Source: Akkermansia muciniphila (GTDB lineage Bacteria; Verrucomicrobiota; Verrucomicrobiia; Verrucomicrobiales; DEV007). From it: a DNA stretch of 54,354 nt. The position numbers were made by a program, and so were the translations under genes. Below, piece after piece: positions 2,699 through 18,893 of this stretch; within the stretch, counting starts at the first letter, position 1, and each line of letters opens with the position of its first letter. Under the pieces are notes generated by a model. It ran no database searches and was not told where the DNA came from. It worked only from the letters and a program-made list of their open reading frames with translations. Location: contig CAMCXS010000040.1 of NCBI GenBank assembly GCA_945883495.1, positions 1 to 54,354 of the forward strand, written 5' to 3'.

Positions 2699-4213
2699 AT
2701 GCTCCTGATTCGCCGATTTGTGCTTTTGATCGCCGCTGGGTGCGGCTGTGGCCTCCTGTGTTTCCAAGCGCGAGCCGAGCTGCGCGCTGGCGTGTCCAAA
2801 GTGGATATAACGGATCGAGCCGCCGGGCCGGTAAACGATCCCTGTTTTGCCAAGGCGCTGGTGCTCGAACGCGACGGCTTGCGGATCGCGTTGGTCTCCG
2901 TCGATGCCGTGTCGATTGGCGAGATCGGCCGGATCGGCAATGATTTTCTAGGCACCGTTCGCCAGGCAGTGCAGCGTGAGGCGGGAATTGCTCCCGACGG
3001 CGTGTTGGTGAATGCGAGTCACTGCCATGGCACGGTGAGGATGGACACGGCGGCGTTGGTGATCCAGGCGGTGAACGAAGCTGCGAACCGCCTGGAACCC
3101 GTGCGGGCGGGTGCGGGCTCCGGTTTTGAGGACCGGGTCAGCGAGAACCGGCGGCTCAAACTCAAGGACGGGTCGGAGGCGGACATGCGGCGAGCGTACG
3201 CGATGCCATCGGACCATCAGATTGCCGCCGTGGGTCCGATCGATCCGCAAATCGGCCTGTTGAGGCTCGATCGGGTTTCCGACGGGAGGGCGATGGCGTT
3301 GCTCTACAACTTCGCCTGCCATCCCATCATGAACCCGCCGGGGAAGGGGAGTTCCGCGGACTATCCCGCGTACGCCTCGCGGTTGATTGAAGAGGCGTTG
3401 GGGCATGGGGCGCTTGCTTTCTTTGTGCAAGGATGCGGTGGGGACATCAATCCGGTTCGCTACAAGGAGGTGAACGCACCGCCGGATGCCGAACCCTTGG
3501 GAAACCTTCTTGGTCTGAGTGTGTTGCGGGCTGCCCGGGGCATTCGGGCCGAAGAAAATGGGGAGCTGAAAATTCGACGAGAGGTTGTCGAGCTTCCGCG
3601 AGCCCAGGACTACGAATTCCGGATCAAGGCCATTGAGGCGAAGCGGACGCAATTGGTGACCTCCTTGCAGCCGACGAACATCAATTTCAAAGCGTTTCTT
3701 CCGATGTTGATTGAGGAGAAACTTTCGCCGGACGCGCCGTCGCACTTCGTGCAGAGTTATCTGCACGAGCGGACGATGCAGCGAGAAACTCTCAGCCAAT
3801 TTGATGCGGATCGTCGTGCCAACCTGGAGCGTTATCGATCCAACATAGACGTGATGGAGGAGTTGACCCGGTTGAATACGAATCTGTCGTTGCTCCGCCG
3901 CCACTTGGAGCAGACGAAGGCAGCCGCGACGCCGACGCTTGCCGTGGAAGTCGTAGGCTTGCGGATTGGTGATTTCCGGCTCGTGACCTTCCCCGGTGAA
4001 GCCACGGTTGAAGTGGGGCTAAATATTAAGCAGGCGAGCGGACATCCTCATGCCTTCGTGGCCGCCTATACCAACGGCTACATTTACTACGCTCCCACGG
4101 CGGAGCAACGCCGCAACTCCGGCTACGCACAAGAGGATTGCGATACTCTTGTTGCTCCCGAATGGCAGGCCATCTTTGAGGCCAGAGCGGTGGAGATATT
4201 GGAAGGACTTTGA
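2699..4213 (+). CDS. Neutral/alkaline ceramidase-like secreted hydrolase
   Basis: 504 residues from the ATG at 2699. The same frame is open upstream to 1955, but that extension is antisense to another gene, while 2699 begins a signal peptide (IRRFVLLIAAGCGCGLLCF, then QARA before ELRAG). The mature sequence follows the neutral/non-lysosomal ceramidase pattern: ELRAGVSKVDIT, ALVSVDAVSIGEIG, the His-rich NASHCHGTV, NFACHPIMN, SSADYPAYASRLIEEA and FVQGCGGDINPVRY. In that family these segments supply zinc-binding histidines and the active-site serine; substrates are N-acyl amide lipids, but PVC genomes carry many divergent copies, so the substrate here is open. The C-terminal third contains a helical Arg/Glu/Leu insertion. 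It lies between two gene remnants and has no clear ribosome-binding site. Confidence 0.75.
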   Translation: MLLIRRFVLLIAAGCGCGLLCFQARAELRAGVSKVDITDRAAGPVNDPCFAKALVLERDGLRIALVSVDAVSIGEIGRIGNDFLGTVRQAVQREAGIAPDGVLVNASHCHGTVRMDTAALVIQAVNEAANRLEPVRAGAGSGFEDRVSENRRLKLKDGSEADMRRAYAMPSDHQIAAVGPIDPQIGLLRLDRVSDGRAMALLYNFACHPIMNPPGKGSSADYPAYASRLIEEALGHGALAFFVQGCGGDINPVRYKEVNAPPDAEPLGNLLGLSVLRAARGIRAEENGELKIRREVVELPRAQDYEFRIKAIEAKRTQLVTSLQPTNINFKAFLPMLIEEKLSPDAPSHFVQSYLHERTMQRETLSQFDADRRANLERYRSNIDVMEELTRLNTNLSLLRRHLEQTKAAATPTLAVEVVGLRIGDFRLVTFPGEATVEVGLNIKQASGHPHAFVAAYTNGYIYYAPTAEQRRNSGYAQEDCDTLVAPEWQAIFEARAVEILEGL

Positions 4214-4362: not shown

Positions 4363-4497
4363 AAGGCGGGCGGTCAGCTCCCGAGCACTGAACGGCTTCA
4401 CGACATCATCTTCCTCGCCAGCCCGACCAGGTGATCGCCCCTCCGTCTGCAGGGCGAAGAAGATGTTGTCCGCGATGGACGGCTCAGCCTCGTAGTG
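4363..4497 (-). pseudogene. Internally deleted response-regulator remnant
   Basis: On the minus strand, 4497 to 4363 encodes YEAEPSIADNIFFALQTEG followed, after about six residues, by AGEEDDVVKPFSARELTARL. The first piece matches the beginning of an OmpR-type receiver domain (normally V-E-D-E-P-x-I-A-D-N); the second matches its end (normally G-A-D-D-Y-x-x-K-P-F-S-x-R-E-L). The roughly 70 residues between them, including the phospho-acceptor aspartate, are absent, and the frame then breaks into stops. No DNA-binding domain follows in any frame. It fills most of the 270-base gap between the ceramidase-like gene and the large heme protein, and its first codons overlap the last codons of that protein. 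Confidence 0.55.
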
Positions 4498-7400
4498 ATT
4501 GCAACCAAGCAACGAGATCGACCAATTCTTGGGCGCTGAGGACGGCGGCGAGGCCGGGCGGCATGAGGCTGGTGGTCATTTCCTCCCGGCTTGCGATTTG
4601 GTCCTTCTTCACTGGTTGACTGACGCCGCCGGGCATCCGGATGGTGAGGTCCGTGCTGGTTTCTCCCGTGACGAAACCGGCGAACGAAGAATTGTCCTTG
4701 GTCTTGATGATCACGCCCTGGAAGCCGTGGCTGATGGCGGCGCTCGGGTAGAGAATGGCTTCGTAGAGACCTTCCTTGGAAAGCTTGCTGCCGATTCCCG
4801 AGAGGGCGGGGCCGAACTCGATCCCGGCCGAGCCGACTTTGTGGCAGGTGATGCAGGTGGCTTTGCTGAAGGCGGCCTTGCCGTGATCGGGATTGCCCTT
4901 CATGGCGAGGAGCTCGGCCACTGGGGGCAGGCTTTCGGTGCCGAGGGCGGCGGGCACCTTGAACTTCGTCTTCGCCGCATTGCGCAAGCTCTCGTCCGTG
5001 GAGCGCGAGAGGGCCGTGGCCGCCAGGAAGTGGAGATCCGCTGGAAGCTGGCCGCTCTCGGAAAGCTTCACGAGCTCCTGACCTCCGCCCAGGGAAACGG
5101 CGAGCGAGGAGACCAGCTCACGGCGCAGTTCGGGGGTGAGTTCCTTGCGAGTCAACTGCCCGGAGAGCAGCTTCACGGCGGGGTTGTCGGCCACTTTGCC
5201 GATGGCCCGGATCAGGGAGACGGCTTGGTCCGGCTTGGGCGCCTTGGTGGCCTGGGAGAGAATGCGTCCCGAAGCTGCGGAGTCGCGGAGGAGAATCCGG
5301 GCGGCGTTGATCGCTTCCTCGCTTTCCGGAGCGGCGGAAATGACTTCGACGACCTCGGTTTCGAAACCGGGCAAGTTGAGCTTCTCGATCAAATCGATCA
5401 ATTCCGGCCGGCCACGCAAGGGCGCCAGCAGGGCATCCAAACGCGCGTTTCCGCCTTGAATCTTGGCGACGCCTTCGCGGCCGAGCAAACCAGCGGCGGC
5501 CAGGGCCACCTCTGGGGAACCTTCCTTGAAAATCTTCGCGTAAGCCGCCTGTTGCGCAGCGGTATCGGGTTGGAAATGGATCGCCCGGATCAAGCCCGGA
5601 TTTTTGGCCCCGTCGCGCAGGACGAGCTCGGCGATTTTCCCAGCGGAAACCTTGGCCCGGCTGCGCCAGACGATGTCATCGTGCGGCTTGGTCAACACGG
5701 CGAAGCGGGCGTTCCAATGCAGGTCCGCGCCGATCCCCAGCGCTTCCAGATACCAGCGATCCTTGCCGTCATACTTCTGCGCCAGCGCGGCCCAGAACGT
5801 ATCGGCCGCCGGTCCCGAGAGGAATCGCACTGCCAGGCACATTTCCCGGAGGACGGCGGGATCGCGTTCGTTATCCAGAGCGACGCTGAGTGGGGTGAGG
5901 AAGCCGTTTACGAGTTCCGGGTCATCGGCAATGCGTTGGGGTCCGCCGAAGAAGGCGCGCCAAGCGCGAATCGCGGTGATGCGGAGGTTCGGGTCCGCGC
6001 CGAGCAAGGTTTCCGTCATGAGTTGCGGGAAGCCGTCGCGATCCACGCTGGAGGCGAGGAGCCAGAGGGCGCGGGCGCGGAGATAGGTGGGCGCCTGGGT
6101 ATTGCGGAACAGCGAATGCATCGCTGGGATGGCCGATTTGCCGGAAGATGCGAGCTTTTGCCAAGCGAGGTAACGGGCGGACTCGTTCGGCGATTTGATG
6201 GCTTCGACCGCGCCTTCGATGGAATCAAAGCGATAGGCCGGGACCGCCATCTTCTTGTTGCCTTTGGGCGCCACGCGGAATATCCGGCCGCGCTCCAGAT
6301 CGGCCATGCCATGTCCGCCGACGCCGGGATCGTACCAATCCGCCACGATGAGCGATCCGTCGGGCGCCACGGCCACGTCGCTGGGGCGGAACCAGGGATC
6401 GTTGTTGGTCTCCAGGATGTTCAGGACTTCGGCGCGGTAACCGGCTCCCGAGGGTTTCGCGGGATAAGCGCGGACGACGTTGGGACCGGCGTCGCAATGA
6501 ATCGGCTGTCCGCGGAAGGCCGCTGGGAGCAAGGAACCTTCGTAGACGCAAATGCCGGTCGGGGAGCCTGCGCCGGTTTGCAGGAGATTGGGGACGACGC
6601 CGGGGTCGTTGAGGTGCCAGTGACGGAGGGGGATTTCCTCGTTCATTCCGGGGCGTGGATCGCGCCAACCGGCCCGGGTGATTTCGTCTTTGTAGCCGTA
6701 GTTCCCGTACTCCATGACGTAGTTGATGCGGACGCCTTTGTTGCCGTCATCGTCGTTGTCCGACTGCCAGAGCGTGCCGAAAGAATCGACGGCGACTTCC
6801 CAGTTGTTGCGGAAGTTCCAGCCGAGGGTCTCGACGTGGGTGCCGTCCAGATCACAGCGGAAGACCATGCCTTCTTGGTAAGGCAAGTTGCCGCCGCGGA
6901 CTTCACGTCCCGCGAGATCGATGATCACCTTGCCGGACGGATCGCAGAGTTGGGTGGCGGCGTTCCCGAAGTTGAAATAGAGCTTCCCATCCGGACCGAA
7001 GTGGAAGGCGTGGATCCCGTGGTCGTGCTGGCTGCCGCCGATTTTGGTGAAGAGGACTTGTTTGCTGCCCGCGTCCGCCTTGCTGTCGCCATCGCGGTCG
7101 AAGAGGCTGAAGACTTCATCGCCGCAGGAAATGATCACGCGATCGCCGAGGACGCAGATGCCATGGGCGCTATCGACATCGTGGCCCTGGTAGAAGACCT
7201 TGGATTGGTCCGCTTTGCCGTCGGCGTCATTGTCTTCAAGGATGAGGATTCGGTCGCCTTCGGGGCGTTTGCCCTGGTTCTTACGGTAATTGACGACTTC
7301 GCAAACCCAGACGCGGCCGCGGTGATCGACATCGATGGCGCTGGGACTCAGGAGGGCGGGTTCGGCGGCGAAGAGTTGGGCTTCCAGCTCGGGATGGACC

Positions 7401-8620
7401 TTGAGCGAGGCCAAAGCCTGGGACGGGAGGTGGGGATCGAGCGGTTTCGGGGCCGGTACTGGCGTCGCCACCGGAGCTGGAGCCGGCGCGGGAGCCGCGG
7501 GCGTTGGCTTGGCCGCCACGGGAGGCTTTTTGGGGGGCTCGGGCATGACCTTGGGCTTGGCATCGGCGTTTGCCTTGGCTTGCGGAGCTGGGGCAGCGGC
7601 CGGTTTGGGTTCGGGCTTGGGGCCCCCGTATTGGACCGCCAGCTGGGTCAATTCGTCGCGGGTCGGGCGAGTGGTCTCGATGCCGTTAGCGGGGATTTCC
7701 AACCCAGCGGTCCAAGCGACGCCGTTGAGGACGCACTTGCGGAAATTGTCTTCTTCGAAGTTCCAGTGGAAGTGGATACCGGTGAAGCCGAAGCCGCGGC
7801 CTTTGCCATATTCCTCGGAGCGCTCGTAAGCCCAGGCGACGTGTTGCGGATTGCCGTCGGCGACGGCCTTGCGGACGGCGGGGTTTCCGGAGTGTGGGCC
7901 ATCGGGGCGATTGAGGGTGCTGGCGGGGGCTTTCGCCGAAAGGATCGGGGTGACGCCCTTGAGATCACCAACGAAGCGCATGTGATAGTACCACTCATCC
8001 TTGATCTTGAACGGCTTGAGGCCGCGCGACACCGGGTGGCCCGGGAAGCTCACGAAGTCCGGTTCCCAGGTGGGATTCACCGACCAATTCGCCTCGAAAA
8101 ATCCGCCCATCCATTGGAGCATTCCTTTGGCGGAGGGACCGACTGGCACCTCGACGGCGTAGTGGAGGCAAGCCAAACCGACGCCTTGCCGCATCAGTTT
8201 GTCGAACTCAGGAACATGCTGATTCACAAGGTGACCGTTGCCGCCCGAGCAAAAGATGACCACCGTGTCCGCCCCGGCGAAGAACTCGTCGGGATTGGCC
8301 GGCCAATTGATCGAGTAACGGGTATCGAGCTTCTCGTCGGGGTAACGGTCCTGGAGATACTTGCCGATGAGGCGGCACCCGGCGGCGTACTCGTGCTCGC
8401 CGAACCCGTGGGACTTCTTGTGGGAGACGAAGCAGATGACGGTGCGGTCGTTCTCCGCCGGAGCTGGGGCGGGAACGGCGGCCGGAGCGGGAGCGGGAGC
8501 GGGAGTTGGCGCGGGGGCGGCGCCCGGTTTGGTTTGAGCCGGAGCGGCCTGAGGGGCCAGCAGAACCAGCCCCAGGGCAAGCAGGGCGGTCAGGAAAGTC
8601 GGGGCTTTGGGCAAAGACAT
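4484..8620 (-). CDS. ThuA-like / PVC beta-propeller / HEAT / c-type heme fusion protein
   Basis: 1378 residues from the ATG at 8620; the open frame continues to 9700, but MSLPKAPTFLTALLALGLVL is a signal peptide and upstream sequence is antisense to another gene. Order: signal peptide (to about 29), Pro/Ala linker, ThuA-like domain (about 58-305, with VICFVSHKKSHGFGEHEYAA and GVGLACLHYAV), a second Pro/Ala/Lys linker, a membrane-bound-dehydrogenase-like beta propeller, HEAT-type helical repeats, and a C-terminal cytochrome c domain with C-I-T-C-H at 1256-1260 and a candidate axial Met at 1353 (SLMPPG). ThuA domains are linked to oxidised sugar (3-keto-trehalose) metabolism; the propeller-heme module is typical of planctomycetes and verrucomicrobia and is thought to do periplasmic redox chemistry. 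Probably a periplasmic sugar-oxidising enzyme; substrate unknown. Confidence 0.88.
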   Translation of the reverse strand: MSLPKAPTFLTALLALGLVLLAPQAAPAQTKPGAAPAPTPAPAPAPAAVPAPAPAENDRTVICFVSHKKSHGFGEHEYAAGCRLIGKYLQDRYPDEKLDTRYSINWPANPDEFFAGADTVVIFCSGGNGHLVNQHVPEFDKLMRQGVGLACLHYAVEVPVGPSAKGMLQWMGGFFEANWSVNPTWEPDFVSFPGHPVSRGLKPFKIKDEWYYHMRFVGDLKGVTPILSAKAPASTLNRPDGPHSGNPAVRKAVADGNPQHVAWAYERSEEYGKGRGFGFTGIHFHWNFEEDNFRKCVLNGVAWTAGLEIPANGIETTRPTRDELTQLAVQYGGPKPEPKPAAAPAPQAKANADAKPKVMPEPPKKPPVAAKPTPAAPAPAPAPVATPVPAPKPLDPHLPSQALASLKVHPELEAQLFAAEPALLSPSAIDVDHRGRVWVCEVVNYRKNQGKRPEGDRILILEDNDADGKADQSKVFYQGHDVDSAHGICVLGDRVIISCGDEVFSLFDRDGDSKADAGSKQVLFTKIGGSQHDHGIHAFHFGPDGKLYFNFGNAATQLCDPSGKVIIDLAGREVRGGNLPYQEGMVFRCDLDGTHVETLGWNFRNNWEVAVDSFGTLWQSDNDDDGNKGVRINYVMEYGNYGYKDEITRAGWRDPRPGMNEEIPLRHWHLNDPGVVPNLLQTGAGSPTGICVYEGSLLPAAFRGQPIHCDAGPNVVRAYPAKPSGAGYRAEVLNILETNNDPWFRPSDVAVAPDGSLIVADWYDPGVGGHGMADLERGRIFRVAPKGNKKMAVPAYRFDSIEGAVEAIKSPNESARYLAWQKLASSGKSAIPAMHSLFRNTQAPTYLRARALWLLASSVDRDGFPQLMTETLLGADPNLRITAIRAWRAFFGGPQRIADDPELVNGFLTPLSVALDNERDPAVLREMCLAVRFLSGPAADTFWAALAQKYDGKDRWYLEALGIGADLHWNARFAVLTKPHDDIVWRSRAKVSAGKIAELVLRDGAKNPGLIRAIHFQPDTAAQQAAYAKIFKEGSPEVALAAAGLLGREGVAKIQGGNARLDALLAPLRGRPELIDLIEKLNLPGFETEVVEVISAAPESEEAINAARILLRDSAASGRILSQATKAPKPDQAVSLIRAIGKVADNPAVKLLSGQLTRKELTPELRRELVSSLAVSLGGGQELVKLSESGQLPADLHFLAATALSRSTDESLRNAAKTKFKVPAALGTESLPPVAELLAMKGNPDHGKAAFSKATCITCHKVGSAGIEFGPALSGIGSKLSKEGLYEAILYPSAAISHGFQGVIIKTKDNSSFAGFVTGETSTDLTIRMPGGVSQPVKKDQIASREEMTTSLMPPGLAAVLSAQELVDLVAWLQSLRG

Positions 8621-8749
8621 GGGCGCAACCTGCCGATTCCGCCCCATCTTGTCAATGCGGGGCAGCGGCCGCTTGATCCGATCGCGGGACCGGGGTAACA
8701 ATCGAGGGCGACTCGGCCCGCCAGCCAGTCCATCCGTAAACGTTGCTCC

Positions 8750-9685
8750 ATGACCCCTCTGAGCGTCCAAAAATCCGTTGTGATCCAGGCCAGCCTCGAC
8801 CGGGCCTATGCCTCGGTCCGCAGCTTTCGCGATTGGGTCAAATGGTGTTCCTGGCTGGCGATTCAGCCCGACTGCGAGCGGCACTTTCTTCAGGACAACG
8901 GCGGTTTCGCCTGGGAGGGCGTGGTGGCCGGGGAGTGCCGGGTGGAGGTGGTCCACGAGGATGGGCCCCGTTCCTTGCGCCTCAAAATCAGCCGCCTCCA
9001 ACCTTGGAAGTGGCAGGGGGAATTGGAATTCAAGTTCCGTGATTTGGGCGGGGGCCAAGGGAGCGAATTGACGTGGACCATCGAGGGAGGTCTCCCGTAT
9101 GCCCGCCTTCGCGACGCGGAAAGAGCGGCGGCGGAACTCCGGAGCGAAGCCGATTTGGCTCTGGCGCTGCTCCGCAGCTTCGTGGAGACGGGGGCCGCGC
9201 CGTGCAAACTGGAGACTCCGGGCCGGGTGCTTTATCCGGGCGGCCACTACCTGGGGCTGCGCTGGAAGGGAGCGATCACGGAAATCCCAGCCGCGATTCC
9301 CGCTGCGTTCGGAAAGCTGACGGACTGGATGAAGGATCATCGAGTCGCCGCCTTGGGGCCGCGGGCTTTGTTCTGTCAGGAGTGGGAGGTTGCCAGAGGA
9401 ATCTGCGAGGTGACGCCCGCCATTCTCGTCGGGAAAGGGACGGTGAAAGGACGATTGCCTGCCGGATTCGCCACCTTCAACGTGCCGCCTGGCAGAGCGG
9501 AGCTGGTACGTTTGGCCGGCCCCTATGCCTTCTTGCCCCTGGCTTGGTCCGCCGCCAAGGCGCGGGTGGATGCGTTGGATTTGGATCCGTCGAGCGCAGC
9601 GGAGCCATTCGAGATTTACGAGAACAGCCCGAGCAAAACGCCACCGGGTCAGCTTTCCACCGCGGTTTACGTTCCTGTGAGATAA
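8750..9685 (+). CDS. SRPBCC domain fused to GyrI-like ligand-binding domain
   Basis: 311 residues. Residues 1-145 have the polyketide-cyclase/SRPBCC (START-like) pattern: VQKSVVIQASLDRAYASVRS, FRDWVKWCSWLAIQPDCE, then GECRVEVVHEDGPRSLRLKI and SELTWTIEGGLPY. Residues about 150-311 resemble a GyrI-like effector-binding domain (GHYLGLRWKGAITEIPAAIP, then GICEVTPAILVG, and the end FEIYENSPSKTPPGQLSTAV, matching the typical E-x-Y-x-N-x-P-x-x-T-P-x-x-x-L-x-T-x-I-x-x-P finish). Both folds bind small hydrophobic molecules. There is no helix-turn-helix, so it is not itself a transcription factor. It is divergent from the heme-protein gene (129 bases) and convergent, 15 bases apart, with the L,D-transpeptidase. 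Confidence 0.75.
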   Translation: MTPLSVQKSVVIQASLDRAYASVRSFRDWVKWCSWLAIQPDCERHFLQDNGGFAWEGVVAGECRVEVVHEDGPRSLRLKISRLQPWKWQGELEFKFRDLGGGQGSELTWTIEGGLPYARLRDAERAAAELRSEADLALALLRSFVETGAAPCKLETPGRVLYPGGHYLGLRWKGAITEIPAAIPAAFGKLTDWMKDHRVAALGPRALFCQEWEVARGICEVTPAILVGKGTVKGRLPAGFATFNVPPGRAELVRLAGPYAFLPLAWSAAKARVDALDLDPSSAAEPFEIYENSPSKTPPGQLSTAVYVPVR

Positions 9686-9700
9686 GATCGGGCGCGCCAC

Positions 9701-13766: not shown

Positions 13767-15704
13767 ATGTTAAATCCTCGCCACCGCCCTCCCCGTTCCT
13801 CTTGCGGAGCCTTTTCTCTGCTCGAGGTCCTCGTTACCATCGCCGTGCTTGGCATCCTTGCCATCGTGGCGGTGGAATCCACGACTCGTCTCCGTGAAGG
13901 AGCGACCGCGACCAAGCTCGATTCCGACGTCGCCGCCATCAACCAATCCATCAAGGTCTACTTGGCGAATGGCGGAAACTTGGATGGAGTCACGGATCCT
14001 GCTGCGGTCTTGGAAAAACTGAAGACTCGCCGGGAGGCATCTGATGCCGCGGCGTTTGCGGGATTCCGGTCGGACATGATTGATCAGCGGGTGGTTCCCG
14101 TGTTGCAAACGGTGGCCGAGGCCGCCCAGAGGACTCCCCGAGCGGTTTGGAACGCCACCGCCAAGCGATTTGACATGGCCCAGCAAGGCGCGGCAGGCGT
14201 GGCTCGATTTGAACTCGACGCTGCGGCGGGGCGCGCGGACCATGGGGTCGAAAGTCGGGAGGCAGGTGCCGTGGCGCTCAACCGGGGCGATGGTTGGATT
14301 TGGAACTATGAAGACGCAGCGCCCCCGGTGCTGAGTGGACCCGGAACGATTCCGGTGACGACCCCAACGCCGCTGGTTCCCGCGGCGCCAACGCCTCCCG
14401 GCCGTCTGCAGGCGCCGGTCTTCAGCACCCCCGGGGGAACGTATCGCTACAACACCTTTCCGGATACCGTTACGATTACGAATCCAAGCGGCACCGGCCA
14501 AATCATGGTGGGCCGCTCGTGGACGGCGGATGGCGTGCAATGGGAAGCCTATACAGGACCCGTTACGATCGAACCTGGCAGCCACCTTTTGGCTTTTGTG
14601 CAGTCGCCCGGTGGGGAGTATACTGACAGCGTAGCGTCGAGCGGAACCTACGAGCTGGAGATCATCGAGCTCGAAGCGCCCAGGATCGAGCCGAGCGCCA
14701 GCTTGATGGATCTGGATAGCAACCAGACGGTTTCCATCCAAATCGTCAACCCGAATCCTTCCGATTACCGGAGTTATGTGGAGTATGCGCTTTCTGACGG
14801 GAATTATGTTCGCTATGAAGGGCCGTTATCCATTTCGCCATCGAGCCATGCAGCCGGATTTGAAATTGCAGCGCGGGTGGTGCCAAGTATGCGCGGCTTT
14901 GAGGCAAGTGAGCCGGTGACCCGTTGGTTGCCCGTTAAGCTGCGGCCTCCGCTCATCGACAAGAAGCAAACGGGAGCCATCTTTGATATCACTCTCTTTG
15001 ACCGGAATCCGGCGAACGTAGGGACACTGCGTTATCTCATCCAAGACCTCCGCACGGGTACCCGGACTGCATGGCAAGATTATTCTGCTGCCTTCGCCAT
15101 TGATGGCAGTCTGTATGGGAAAGGTTTTGAGGTGGTCACCTATGCCGCGACGACGAGCACTCGCCACCTGGATAGCTCCGAAAGCAGTGCTCAAGGGCGG
15201 AGCTTCTTCGGGACACAAGTCGCGGACCGGGCGATCTTGGTTCTCGATGTTTCTGGGTCGATGGCTTCAAACGGGCGTCTCACCAGTCTGAAAGCGGAGG
15301 CCAAGCGATTGCTTTCCGCGATGCCGCAGGATGGTAAGATTTCGATCATCTCATTCTCGAGCAAAGCGAAGCTTGAGTTTGCCTATCAAACAACCACCTC
15401 GTCCAAAATCACCCAAGCTCAGGGCATCATTGATTCCCTGAAAGCTTCCGGCTTAACCAACTACTCGGAGTCGCTAAACATGGCCTTGGGGATCGTGAAA
15501 GCGAATCCCGATGTGGAACAAGTCGTGTTTCTGTCTGACGGGGCGCCGACGACCGGAGACACTTCCACCAACGGCATTCTGCGCATCGTGGACTCGATCG
15601 CCGCTCTGAAGGTGGCAGTCTCTCCGATCGGCTACCAGATGACGACGGATGCCGAGCGCAAGCTGATTCAACGCATGAAAGAACGGGGAACGCCCACATT
15701 CTGA
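13767..15704 (+). CDS. Modular type IV pseudopilin with C-terminal von Willebrand A domain
   Basis: 645 residues. A type III (prepilin) signal at residues 1-35 has a basic start, then GAFSLLEVLVTIAVLGILAI; processing before Phe would put Glu at the expected +5. Residues 36-190 are a pilin-like globular part, 211-300 and 301-390 are beta-sandwich repeats resembling chitobiase C-terminal domains, 393-485 a third more divergent one, and 486-645 a VWA domain with the metal site D494-x-S-x-S (LDVSGSMAS), Asn/Ser in GLTNYSESLNMAL, and Asp591 in LSDGAPTTGD. Modular VWA pilins are known as minor, tip-located adhesins in some Gram-positive type IV pili. Here it is probably a pilus-tip or type II-secretion-like adhesin. 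No other pilus gene is nearby. It is followed 5 bases later by a lipoprotein gene. Confidence 0.85.
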   Translation: MLNPRHRPPRSSCGAFSLLEVLVTIAVLGILAIVAVESTTRLREGATATKLDSDVAAINQSIKVYLANGGNLDGVTDPAAVLEKLKTRREASDAAAFAGFRSDMIDQRVVPVLQTVAEAAQRTPRAVWNATAKRFDMAQQGAAGVARFELDAAAGRADHGVESREAGAVALNRGDGWIWNYEDAAPPVLSGPGTIPVTTPTPLVPAAPTPPGRLQAPVFSTPGGTYRYNTFPDTVTITNPSGTGQIMVGRSWTADGVQWEAYTGPVTIEPGSHLLAFVQSPGGEYTDSVASSGTYELEIIELEAPRIEPSASLMDLDSNQTVSIQIVNPNPSDYRSYVEYALSDGNYVRYEGPLSISPSSHAAGFEIAARVVPSMRGFEASEPVTRWLPVKLRPPLIDKKQTGAIFDITLFDRNPANVGTLRYLIQDLRTGTRTAWQDYSAAFAIDGSLYGKGFEVVTYAATTSTRHLDSSESSAQGRSFFGTQVADRAILVLDVSGSMASNGRLTSLKAEAKRLLSAMPQDGKISIISFSSKAKLEFAYQTTTSSKITQAQGIIDSLKASGLTNYSESLNMALGIVKANPDVEQVVFLSDGAPTTGDTSTNGILRIVDSIAALKVAVSPIGYQMTTDAERKLIQRMKERGTPTF

Positions 15705-15709
15705 ACCAA

Positions 15710-16168
15710 ATGAAAAACTCGATCTTTGCCCTGCCTGCCACGTTCGCGGCGATTCTGTCGCTCACCGCCTGCAATCCGGATGATCCCTCGGCCAGCACGT
15801 CCGGTTCTGGGGTTCCCACCCCCGCTGAGGTGGAGAGCAAACTCAAGTCCCTGGAGCAAGATTTGACCCGGGTCCTGGCCGTCGTCGAACCGTTGCAGGG
15901 AGACCCCGAGGCGCAAATGCAGCACCTTGTCGAAGATGACCAGTTTGCGGAGTTGATTGGCGACCACGTCGCCGAGTTTGAAGAACTGGCTACTTCCTTG
16001 CAGTCGATGAGCGACGAAGAGAAGCAGGAGTACACGGGCACCATTGGGCCGGTGATTGATGCCCTGGAGCAGCGGATGAAGGAGATTTGCTCCTGCGGTC
16101 CGGTGGCCGAGGATACGCTCGCTCCGCTTTTCGCGGCGGCTCAGGAAGCGTTGAAGGCAGCCCTCTGA
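15710..16168 (+). CDS. Small lipoprotein, unknown
   Basis: 152 residues. The signal peptide ends in a lipobox, LSLTAC, so Cys21 would be lipidated; the next residues NPDD (Asp at +4, none at +2) are compatible with outer-membrane sorting. The mature part is acidic and helical, with heptad-like VESKLKSLEQDLTRVLAVVE, HVAEFEELATSLQSM and IDALEQRMKEI, ending in a Cys-Ser-Cys (ICSCG) pair. It lies 5 bases after the VWA-pilin stop and 37 before the exonuclease-ligase start, so it probably shares the pilin promoter and may be a partner of the pilin. No family is recognised. Confidence 0.75.
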   Translation: MKNSIFALPATFAAILSLTACNPDDPSASTSGSGVPTPAEVESKLKSLEQDLTRVLAVVEPLQGDPEAQMQHLVEDDQFAELIGDHVAEFEELATSLQSMSDEEKQEYTGTIGPVIDALEQRMKEICSCGPVAEDTLAPLFAAAQEALKAAL

Positions 16169-16205
16169 GTTGCCAGCGTGGCTCCCCAGACGTTTCTTGG
16201 GGAAG

Positions 16206-18893
16206 ATGGCACAAACTCCAATCCAGGTTGAGTTCCGGCGCGGTGTGTACCTCCCGGAACTCAACTTTTGGCTTGATCCCTGGGAGGGCCGGGACCGTGC
16301 CTTCGTCTCGCACGCTCACGCGGATCACGTGGCGCCTCACCGGGAAATCCTCTGTTCTTCGGTCACCGCTGGGTTTCTCGCAAAACGCTTCCGGCCGCGC
16401 GGAGAAATCTGTTCCCTGGCGTTTGGAGAGGTGATGGAGCGGGACGGATTCCGCTTCCGGCTCTGTCCGGCGGGCCATATTTTGGGATCGGCGCAACTCC
16501 ACCTGGAGCGGTTGAGTGACGGAGCGTCCCTCCTTTACACTGGGGATTTCAAGCTCCGCGCCGGGGTGACGAGCGAAGCGGCGGAGGCCTTGGCGGCGGA
16601 CACCCTGATCATGGAGACGACCTACGGTCTCCCGCGCTATCGGTTCCCCGCTTCGGAGTCCGTGTTGGCGCAGATGGCGGCGTTCGCTGCGGAAAATGTC
16701 GATGAAGGCGTGGCCCCGATGTTCGCCGCCTATTCTTTGGGCAAAGCGCAAGAAGTGATGCTGGCGCTAGGCCAACGAGTCCCGGAGCTGCGGTTTGTCC
16801 TGCATGACTCGGCGGCGCGGATGACCCAAATCTACGAAGAGATGGGCTACGCCATGCCTCACTGGGAAGTGCTCGGAGCGTCCACCAGCTGCAGCGGCAA
16901 AGTGGTCATTGCTCCGCCCTCGGCGATCCGTTCTCAGCAATTGCGCAAGGTGAAGCCGCGCGTCACGGCGATGGTAAGCGGGTGGGGAATTGATCCGGCG
17001 GCGCGCTTCCGTTATCAAGTGGACGAGGTGTTTCCGCTCTCCGATCACGCGGGCTACGACGATCTGCTCCGGTATGTGGAGATGGTGAATCCGGCGGTGA
17101 CTTTGACCTTGCACGGTTTCGCTGCGGAGTTCGCCCGGGATCTGCGGGCGCGAGGCCGGGAGGCTTGGTCCATCAGTGGACAGAATCAGCTGGAACTCTT
17201 CGGGCACGACGGAGGAGAGCCCACGGACGCAACGGTCACACCATCGGCTGGCGGCGAGTTTGCGGCTCTCTCCGCGACGGCGGAAGCGATCCGCAATGCC
17301 CCGGGCAAAACGGGGAAGGTGGCCTTGCTGGCGGATTACCTCCGGAGTCTGGACGATGATCAGATCGCCTTGGCATTGACCTTTTTGTCCGGGCGGGCCT
17401 TTGGGCGGACCGAATCGGTGCGGGCCTTGCAAACGGGTTCGATGATTCTGCGGCGTGCCGTAAGCCAAGCAACCGGGCTTTCCGAAGTGGAGATTCGAAC
17501 GATCGGCGCTGGCCAGAACGATGGACCACGGACCGTCCGGCTCTGTCTCGAGGGACGCGTTGCCCCGCAGCCGTGGGCGCTGACCGAAGTGCGCACCTTG
17601 TTTGAGACTTTGGCGGCGGCGCGCGGGCCGGTGGAAAAAACGACCGTTCTTGCCGAGGCATTGCGGCAGTTGCATCCCCAGGAAGCGGCTCTGCTGGCGG
17701 GGATCTTGGGCGGCGAGTTGCGGATCGGCGTGCAGGAAGGGATGCTGGAAGAGGCATTGGCGCGGGCTTTGGAGTTGCCTCTCGGGGACGTCCGGCACGC
17801 CCGGATGTTGCTCGGTGATCTGGGGGCGACGGCTCGGCTGGCCCGGGACGGCGTGAGTGCCTTACGCGAGGCCGGGGTGACGCCGTTTGTTCCTGTCACC
17901 TCCATGCTGGCCAGTCCGGCGGAGACCGCGGGTGAGATTTGGGAGCGGTTGGGCAGCGGGGGCGGAGTTTGGCTGGAGGACAAGTTCGATGGGATCCGCG
18001 CCCAGCTGCACCGGGTTGGCGACCGGGTGGAGATCTTTTCCCGGGATTTGCGGCCCATTCATAGGGAATTTCAAGAGCTGCTGGAGCCGGCGCGACTGCG
18101 TTTGGGGGCAGATGTGGTGCTCGACGGCGAGATCGTGGCGCATAGCGAAGGACGCCGCCTGACCTTTCACGACCTGCAAAAGCGACTGGGAAGAAAACGG
18201 GATGGCGATCTCTTTTTCGGTCCCGAGGTGCCGGTGCGATTCGTCGCTTTCGATCTGCTTTGGAAAGACGGCGAGACGCTGTTGCACATTTCTTTGGCGG
18301 AGCGGAGAGCGCGCCTGGATGCGTTGGCCTTGGAGCCGCCGTTTGAACCGCTTGCGGTGGTGCGCGCCGGGTCCGAGCTGGAGATTGAGAGCGCGTTTCA
18401 ACTGGCCCGGCGCCGGGGAAATGAAGGGCTGATCGCGAAAGACGGAGACTCCGCTTACGCTCCTGGGCGCCGGGGGATGGCATGGCTCAAACTCAAGAAG
18501 GCGATGACCACGCTCGATTGTGTCGTGGTCCGGGCGGAGGAAGGGCACGGCAAGCGCAGCCATGTGCTCTCGGACTACACCTTTGCGGTCCGGGACGAAG
18601 CCACCGGGCGCTTGGCCGTTCTCGGCAAGGCTTACTCCGGACTGAGCGACGTCGAAATCGAAGAGCTCACCGCCCATTTTCTGGAGACGACGGTGTCCAA
18701 AGAGCGCCGGGTTCGAGAAGTCGTGCCGGAGATCGTGCTTGAGATCGCGTTTGACTCAATCCGTCCGAGCAAGCGGCACGACAGTGGGTTGGCGTTGCGC
18801 TTTCCACGGATCAAGGCCATCCGCCGGGACAAAACGGTCGCGGATATCGATACCCTGGCCTCGGCGCGGAAACTGGCTGGGCTTGCGACGTAA
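16206..18893 (+). CDS. MBL-fold DNA exonuclease fused to ATP-dependent DNA ligase
   Basis: 895 residues from the ATG at 16206 (a TTG at 16170 is also possible). Residues 1 to about 335 are a CPSF73/SNM1-like metallo-beta-lactamase nuclease: HAHADH at 36-41, AGHILGSAQ around His91, TGDFK with Asp114, METTYG and DHAGYDD. Residues about 355-895 are an ATP-dependent DNA ligase: helical N-terminal DNA-binding domain, adenylation domain with nucleophile Lys593 in LEDKFDGIRAQLH, LDGEIVA, AFDLLWKDG, and an OB domain with KKAMTTLDCVV. In many bacteria separate exonuclease and ligase genes accompany the Lhr-Core2 helicase and a metallophosphoesterase in a repair operon; here the two are one chain and the helicase and phosphoesterase are absent from the window. 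Presumably it acts in DNA end repair. Confidence 0.92.
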   Translation: MAQTPIQVEFRRGVYLPELNFWLDPWEGRDRAFVSHAHADHVAPHREILCSSVTAGFLAKRFRPRGEICSLAFGEVMERDGFRFRLCPAGHILGSAQLHLERLSDGASLLYTGDFKLRAGVTSEAAEALAADTLIMETTYGLPRYRFPASESVLAQMAAFAAENVDEGVAPMFAAYSLGKAQEVMLALGQRVPELRFVLHDSAARMTQIYEEMGYAMPHWEVLGASTSCSGKVVIAPPSAIRSQQLRKVKPRVTAMVSGWGIDPAARFRYQVDEVFPLSDHAGYDDLLRYVEMVNPAVTLTLHGFAAEFARDLRARGREAWSISGQNQLELFGHDGGEPTDATVTPSAGGEFAALSATAEAIRNAPGKTGKVALLADYLRSLDDDQIALALTFLSGRAFGRTESVRALQTGSMILRRAVSQATGLSEVEIRTIGAGQNDGPRTVRLCLEGRVAPQPWALTEVRTLFETLAAARGPVEKTTVLAEALRQLHPQEAALLAGILGGELRIGVQEGMLEEALARALELPLGDVRHARMLLGDLGATARLARDGVSALREAGVTPFVPVTSMLASPAETAGEIWERLGSGGGVWLEDKFDGIRAQLHRVGDRVEIFSRDLRPIHREFQELLEPARLRLGADVVLDGEIVAHSEGRRLTFHDLQKRLGRKRDGDLFFGPEVPVRFVAFDLLWKDGETLLHISLAERRARLDALALEPPFEPLAVVRAGSELEIESAFQLARRRGNEGLIAKDGDSAYAPGRRGMAWLKLKKAMTTLDCVVVRAEEGHGKRSHVLSDYTFAVRDEATGRLAVLGKAYSGLSDVEIEELTAHFLETTVSKERRVREVVPEIVLEIAFDSIRPSKRHDSGLALRFPRIKAIRRDKTVADIDTLASARKLAGLAT

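Follow-up and report, generated by a model that had tools for sequence, protein, structure and literature searches.

Bacteria possess a ligase-associated set of four activities, represented in NCBIfam by the models TIGR04120 (ligase), TIGR04121 (Lhr-Core helicase), TIGR04122 (exonuclease) and TIGR04123 (metallophosphoesterase, MPE). Fusions of the nuclease to a LigB-type ligase are already in print: 13 are reported from Antarctic Dry Valley metagenomes in PMC10140301, which credits Ejaz & Shuman 2018 with first noting the fusion of Opitutus terrae. According to that paper, the ligase module of one Antarctic fusion, expressed separately, seals nicked DNA with ATP, the nuclease module of that protein was insoluble, and the LigB/Lhr/phosphodiesterase/nuclease pathway still lacks a precisely known role. 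Here, we describe such a fusion gene in a stretch of 54,354 nucleotides from a genome deposited as Akkermansia muciniphila (assembly GCA_945883495.1, contig CAMCXS010000040.1, our contig C40). This stretch, the whole of the contig, is referred to as the window. Many Verrucomicrobiota carry the fusion; what was less expected is the pattern of its loss, in which the ligase half disappears or decays beside an intact nuclease half. Searches by title and abstract opening, with most subscription journals uncovered, returned no further publication that we recognised as dealing with the fusion, and no account of how it is lost or decays. Neither lone nuclease halves nor truncated or altered ligase halves beside an invariant nuclease were seen in print in these searches.

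The first-pass annotation of the window, made from its letters alone, proposed that one polypeptide carries both enzymes. Indeed, positions 16206–18893 (+) translate into 895 amino acids with a single terminal stop; no internal stop is present, including at residues 335–355, where a stop codon would, by that annotation, have refuted the fusion. The features of the gene are as follows:

16206..18893, + strand: fused nuclease-ligase gene, 895 aa (translation, Pfam and NCBIfam profiles, orthologues).
16206..17210, + strand: beta-CASP metallo-beta-lactamase nuclease domain, residues 1–335 (NCBIfam, conserved residues, AlphaFold2 model, fold matches).
17181..17237, + strand: flexible interdomain linker, residues 326–344 (low model confidence, given below; length varies among orthologues).
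17259..17762, + strand: ligase domain DNA_ligase_A_N, residues 352–519 (Pfam, above cut-off).
17904..18497, + strand: ligase nucleotidyltransferase domain DNA_ligase_A_M, residues 567–764 (Pfam, above cut-off).
18558..18833, + strand: ligase OB domain DNA_ligase_A_C, residues 785–876 (Pfam, above cut-off).

The open reading frame extends 5′ of 16206, giving 907 aa from a TTG at 16170. Of the two features named at first pass, the nuclease motif HAHADH occupies residues 36–41 (nt 16311–16328), and Lys593 (nt 17982–17984) lies in the adenylation motif EDKFDG. TIGR04122 matches residues 12–323 with 230.9 bits (curated cut-off 325), TIGR04120 matches residues 359–890 with 298.9 bits (cut-off 400), and RMMBL matches residues 274–315 with 19.8 bits, slightly under the Pfam cut-off of 21.6. 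Similarity to ATP-dependent ligases covers residues 351 to 891, with three Pfam domains above their gathering scores in addition to the adenylated lysine. The architecture, an N-terminal RMMBL/beta-CASP nuclease followed by DNA_ligase_A_N, A_M and A_C in one chain, is that of the published metallo-beta-lactamase nuclease-LigB proteins. Judged from its sequence, the gene is an intact beta-CASP nuclease joined to a complete LigB-type ATP-dependent DNA ligase.

The fusion is not an assembly error, because it is intact in both congeners, at 79–80% identity and in the same gene neighborhood, and in 26 of 288 genomes of a Verrucomicrobiota phylum draw, several of which are single-contig assemblies. 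In a scan of named genomes, the matched range spanned the junction in 79/79 loci, these being the best 79 of 257 confirmed stretches, a choice that leans towards fusions; 78 bear Verrucomicrobiota names and one is an unnamed bacterium. With independent assemblies carrying the fusion and nothing found in favor of an artefact of assembly or annotation, we rejected that explanation as next to impossible. The first-pass annotation would have counted it as refuting evidence if the fusion were common and already characterised. Half of this holds: common it is, but characterisation extends only to the ligase module of one relative.

Within the order, a TIGR04120 match of at least 269 bits occurs in 38 of 95 genomes, the window’s own included. 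These matches comprise 37 fusions, one of them (G035) cut at the nuclease end by a contig end, and the separate canonical gene of G005, which is the only match above 100 bits outside fusions. No fusion-type ligase without its nuclease was found in the 95 genomes. The one-protein state is present across several families and orders. The window’s fusion shares 44% identity over residues 5–890 with that of G181. In the phylum draw, 65 genomes matched; one (G162) was dropped for having a short ligase match only, and 13 of the remaining 64 have canonical genes, nuclease and ligase together in 11 and the nuclease by itself in two (G267 and G176). Relative to the congener G001, the two halves are similarly constrained, with nonsynonymous (dN) and synonymous (dS) divergences of dN 0.121, dS 1.175 and dN 0.131, dS 1.402, i.e., dN/dS near 0.1. 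Both halves are under purifying selection. The window’s genome also holds a degenerate remnant of a second fusion-type ligase on contig C64 (L064, about 2883–3062 (−)), ~60 residues long, with 55% identity around the adenylation motif and an internal stop.

The first-pass annotation noted that the helicase and phosphoesterase usually associated with these enzymes are missing nearby, which holds for the whole contig, and suggested looking elsewhere in the genome. Homologues are present there: an 851-aa Lhr-Core protein on contig C20 (656 bits to TIGR04121, curated cut-off 850) and an MPE on contig C1 (106 bits to TIGR04123, cut-off 150). Loss of the two partners from the genome is thereby rejected. 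Homologues of all four activities are present, on three contigs and not side by side as in the four-gene cluster. The family assignments of the annotation, and the connection it drew to the Lhr-Core/MPE set, are borne out by these matches. Directly 5′ of the Lhr-Core gene lie short tandem repeats (DAETQG / TPKPKA, in two frames; L006 363–1410).

Based on the known partners and their co-occurrence, we favor, with moderate confidence, the interpretation that the fusion is a two-enzyme protein of a Verrucomicrobiota repair set consisting of Lhr-Core helicase, MPE endonuclease, beta-CASP nuclease and LigB ligase. In the order of action that we infer, the helicase and MPE would open and incise damaged DNA; the nuclease half would clean the DNA end; and the ligase half would seal the nick, presumably by hand-over between the active sites. 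A flexible tether would hold the last two enzymes on one chain, raising the odds that one molecule seals what it has trimmed. Trim-then-seal by a single molecule, as the first-pass annotation imagined, is plausible. Several lines of evidence speak for membership of the repair set: the predicted folds, the intact active sites of both halves and the similar constraint on them, the partner homologues, their co-occurrence, gene rows in some relatives, and the nick sealing by the Antarctic ligase module.

Co-occurrence was counted in 66 high-quality genomes of the order, as raw counts that ignore relatedness. Both partners are present in 31 of 32 fusion genomes (G085 has neither), in two genomes whose fusion is cut by a contig end, and in G005, which has the separate pair. 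Neither half is found in 25 genomes, 24 of which lack both partners while one has both; a genome with a nuclease fragment has neither partner. In these counts, a 191-bit helicase match in G044 is scored as absent and G035 as a fusion, and G087 falls outside the 66. In the phylum draw, both partners occur in 20 of 27 fusion genomes, including one whose fusion runs off its contig, vs 0 of 21 nuclease-only genomes (Fisher p 8e-8), with a 249-bit match in G348 and a long-form match in G363 (a 1481-aa frame) scored as no Lhr-Core. Thresholds were 1e-120 or 1e-45 for Lhr and 1e-12 or 1e-10 for MPE; the Lhr of G103, G171 and G181 was found at 1e-45, having been missed when three candidates per genome were scored (1e-120). 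The fusion, Lhr and MPE genes form a row in six genomes of other families and orders (G103, G111, G171, G181, G224 and G354). The helicases of the order come in two kinds: those of G060, G091, G066 and G011 score near 1000–1100 bits and directly adjoin MPE in G060, G066 and G091, vs those of G000, G063 and G067, which score near 650–690 bits and accompany a lower-scoring MPE.

Several observations weigh against this repair role. (i) All four components score under the NCBIfam curated cut-offs. (ii) The available part of PMC10140301 reports no activity of the nuclease half. (iii) The partners are unlinked here and in single-contig G094, where the three genes lie at 0.06, 5.83 and 7.70 Mb. Since 31 of 32 fusion genomes have both partners but the genes are unlinked in G094, the set in this order is dispersed yet mostly kept in the same genomes. 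(iv) Six of the 26 intact fusions in the phylum draw are accompanied by neither Lhr-Core nor MPE at the thresholds used. (v) The five nuclease-only high-quality genomes are mixed, two with both partners and three with neither. (vi) On the nuclease tree, ligase status is not significantly associated with Lhr or MPE across 8 independent pairs (median p 1 and 0.5). A link between loss of the ligase and loss of Lhr/MPE is thus strong in raw counts and not significant in independent pairs.

The two halves have had different fates. We compared 157 nuclease sequences, comprising 102 full fusions, 8 partial fusions, 32 nuclease-only proteins and 15 canonical separate proteins, with loci cut by contig ends excluded. 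Ten positions (D24, H36, H38, D40, H41, H91, D114, E137, H281 and H303) are invariant in 157/157, including all 15 canonical TIGR04122-type sequences. His200, at first listed as a possible catalytic residue, is kept in only 154. On the ligase side, K593, R598, R613, E642, E740, K762 and K764 are kept in 41/41 full fusions compared. The 32 nuclease-only sequences are scattered among the fusions, requiring 12 changes on the tree, at least 8 of them forced by well supported branches. On a quick tree, grouping all nuclease-only sequences in one clade is rejected (approximately unbiased test, p-AU 1e-133), and so is grouping all fusions in one.

When the tree is rooted with nothing but the separate canonical genes, the fused ligase halves come together with support of 100, so the simplest history would be a single ancient fusion from which the ligase half was lost several times. 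Recurrent fusion, or transfer, is a less simple alternative, in view of the gene of G015, which groups among those of another family, and of the haloarchaeal proteins. When these are added, their ligases take up positions within the fused set, on very long branches, and the fused ligases form one group in only 37% of bootstrap trees; the fused lineage may thus have an archaeal affinity.

Eight fusions are partial. Contig ends account for three of them and an unreadable base for a fourth; neither accounts for the other four. Ligase motif numbers, like the names of nuclease motifs below, follow customary usage. In G363 (L223) and G301 (L224), R or L replaces the adenylated lysine, T replaces the motif III glutamate, and the ligase half breaks off shortly behind motif V and lacks the OB domain. 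In G087 (L060), the lysine is kept, motifs III, IV and V are altered, and the end point is that of G363 and G301. In G293 (L225), the protein does not reach beyond the DNA-binding domain, and nothing more of the ligase was found in any frame of its 9-kb stretch. Thus, in four genomes of three lineages, a truncated or catalytically altered ligase half accompanies intact nuclease residues. Between G363 and G301, the ligase half is 57% identical, with proportions of nonsynonymous and synonymous differences of pN 0.28 vs pS 0.73; it is apparently still constrained, though the synonymous sites are saturated. Neither Lhr-Core nor MPE was found in these two genomes at the thresholds used, and both are present in G087 and G293.

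These forms invite a different explanation, namely that the two halves act in different reactions and the fusion, of little mechanistic meaning, arose from a lost stop codon between neighboring genes and persists as harmless, with the nuclease under selection and the ligase an often-lost passenger. The scatter of lone nucleases and the four broken ligase halves are in its favor; the separate canonical ligase of G005 being the sole non-fusion match in the order also fits, as does a 4-base overlap between the canonical genes for exonuclease and ligase in Ideonella. Against it, every catalytic ligase residue checked is retained in all of the full fusions compared, the ligase half is constrained among congeners much as the nuclease is, and the one-protein state spans several families and orders. 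We consider this explanation unlikely, if a serious competitor, and retain the repair role as the preferred one.

Even in the preferred role, the nuclease half must also have its own job, since many relatives have it alone. That the ligase half is repeatedly missing or decayed next to an intact nuclease argues that the nuclease is kept without the ligase and does not depend on it. More tentatively, and leaning somewhat against it ourselves, we suggest that in some Verrucomicrobiota the ligase half has degenerated on more than one occasion, in G363 and G301 and separately in G087, and with a similar outcome: a platform that no longer catalyses but binds DNA for the nuclease. The fusion would in that case mark an intermediate on a path from repair ligase via pseudo-ligase clamp to nuclease alone. 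In the loss pattern it is the nuclease, the half yet to be characterised, and not the ligase that is marked out as the retained part, and the natural fusions, nuclease-only forms and pseudo-ligase forms are ready-made constructs with which to ask which activity matters.

The AlphaFold2 model, built with 30 orthologues, has a mean predicted local distance difference test score (pLDDT) of 85.6 and a predicted template modeling score (pTM) of 0.51. Because the linker, residues 326–344, has pLDDT below 50, both halves are well predicted while their relative placement is not fixed by the model. The linker is ~20 residues long in the window’s protein and longer in some relatives. In the fusion gene of G181 (L226, 7269–10409 (−)), a similar short peptide beginning GDATPSSR occurs in three linkers, as if a repeat had been inserted in frame several times. 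The ligase half (residues 350–893) resembles archaeal DNA ligases (3rr5, Z 40.7, 540 residues aligned), with a root-mean-square deviation of 10.6 Å that is presumably due to domain movement. The nuclease half (residues 1–332) resembles beta-CASP nucleases (2xr1, Z 30.5, 3.4 Å, 324 aligned), and TTHA0252 and CPSF73 match it at Z between 28 and 29.

These matches raise the question of substrate. The nuclease half might cut RNA, or RNA within DNA, in which case the protein would remove ribonucleotides, primer remnants or R-loop RNA and then seal the DNA nick. In its favor, motif C, where the catalytic residues end, is a histidine (His303) in 157/157 sequences; histidine here is the RNA-type form in beta-CASP enzymes, with valine in Artemis/SNM1. 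Among the 50 fold matches listed, the nucleases process RNA (archaeal CPSF, Thermus TTHA0252, CPSF73 and others). The title of one paper also states that the long form of Mycobacterium smegmatis Lhr prefers 3′-tailed RNA:DNA hybrids. Against it, human SNM1A and Apollo match by sequence too (1e-9 and 7e-5, vs 6e-10 for the best CPSF), in bacteria the genetic linkage of the nuclease is with DNA enzymes, and further families may match beyond the 50 folds listed. On balance, an RNA substrate seems decidedly unlikely to us, and cleaning of DNA ends remains the preferred role.

The fusion gene follows genes for a pilin-like protein and a lipoprotein, in agreement with the first-pass annotation:

13767..15704, + strand: 645-aa VWA-domain protein with a pilin-type N-terminal (N-methylation) motif, a neighbor only.
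15710..16168, + strand: 152-aa putative lipoprotein gene with a lipobox-like LTAC, 37 bases 5′ of the fusion; order kept in both congeners.
16183..16203, + strand: inverted repeat, TCCCCA-N8-TGGGGA, which spans the likely ribosome-binding site and lies two bases 5′ of the start codon.

Co-transcription of the lipoprotein gene with the fusion is possible. The congeners share the whole neighborhood, in which the VWA/pilin-like gene, the small lipoprotein gene and the fusion are followed by two sugar-nucleotide genes and a leucyl-tRNA synthetase gene on the opposite strand. We compared gene order in ten stretches in all, including those of nine relatives (from L067–L072 and L074–L077, less one). 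The order is kept only in the congeners L067 and L068 among the nine relatives’ fusion stretches, and a functional link to the pilin-like and lipoprotein genes is unsupported. The core of the inverted repeat, with at most one mismatch, occurs once per genome, always at this site, in 3/3 genus genomes searched, and is absent at the same stringency from 8 other genomes searched. RNA folding of the repeat is clearly better than that of shuffles only in G001 (z −3.05; window −1.07; G002 0.02). The repeat may be a translational or operator element. A scan for promoters and terminators found no more sites than in shuffles, and the window yielded no tRNA. Two very long open frames overlap on opposite strands at 4484–9700 (−) (1738 aa) and 4499–8698 (+) (1399 aa); probably just one of them is a gene.

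How does this locus compare with described systems? The Opitutus terrae and Antarctic fusions have the same domain order, with the nuclease N-terminal to the LigB ligase. In O. terrae, from another lineage, the four activities stand in a row, whereas in the window’s genome the partners are on other contigs; the Antarctic fusion genes resemble the window’s gene in lying outside a four-gene row. Compared with the bacterial ligase-associated set, the window’s genome has homologues of all four members, but nuclease and ligase are separate genes in that set and one gene here, the scores here are below the curated cut-offs, and a long, fully supported branch separates both halves from the canonical bacterial pairs.

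In haloarchaea, a ligase gene and a gene for an “mRNA 3′-end processing factor” are homologous neighbors on three plasmids (L232, L233 and L234) and fall on the fused side of both trees. Unlike the fusion, they are two genes in the opposite order (ligase first), and very long branches make the grouping uncertain. Plasmid matches (20 of 418 records) come in two or three pieces, and the genes are separate in 6/6 examined closely; the pair of L233 adjoins a UvsE gene. Lastly, Artemis and DNA ligase IV represent a beta-CASP nuclease held to an ATP-dependent DNA ligase by non-covalent contact. The fold matches of the ligase half include structures of ligase IV and of the complex that it forms with Artemis. 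The likeness is by analogy only: here the nuclease is fused covalently at the N terminus, and its motif C is histidine.

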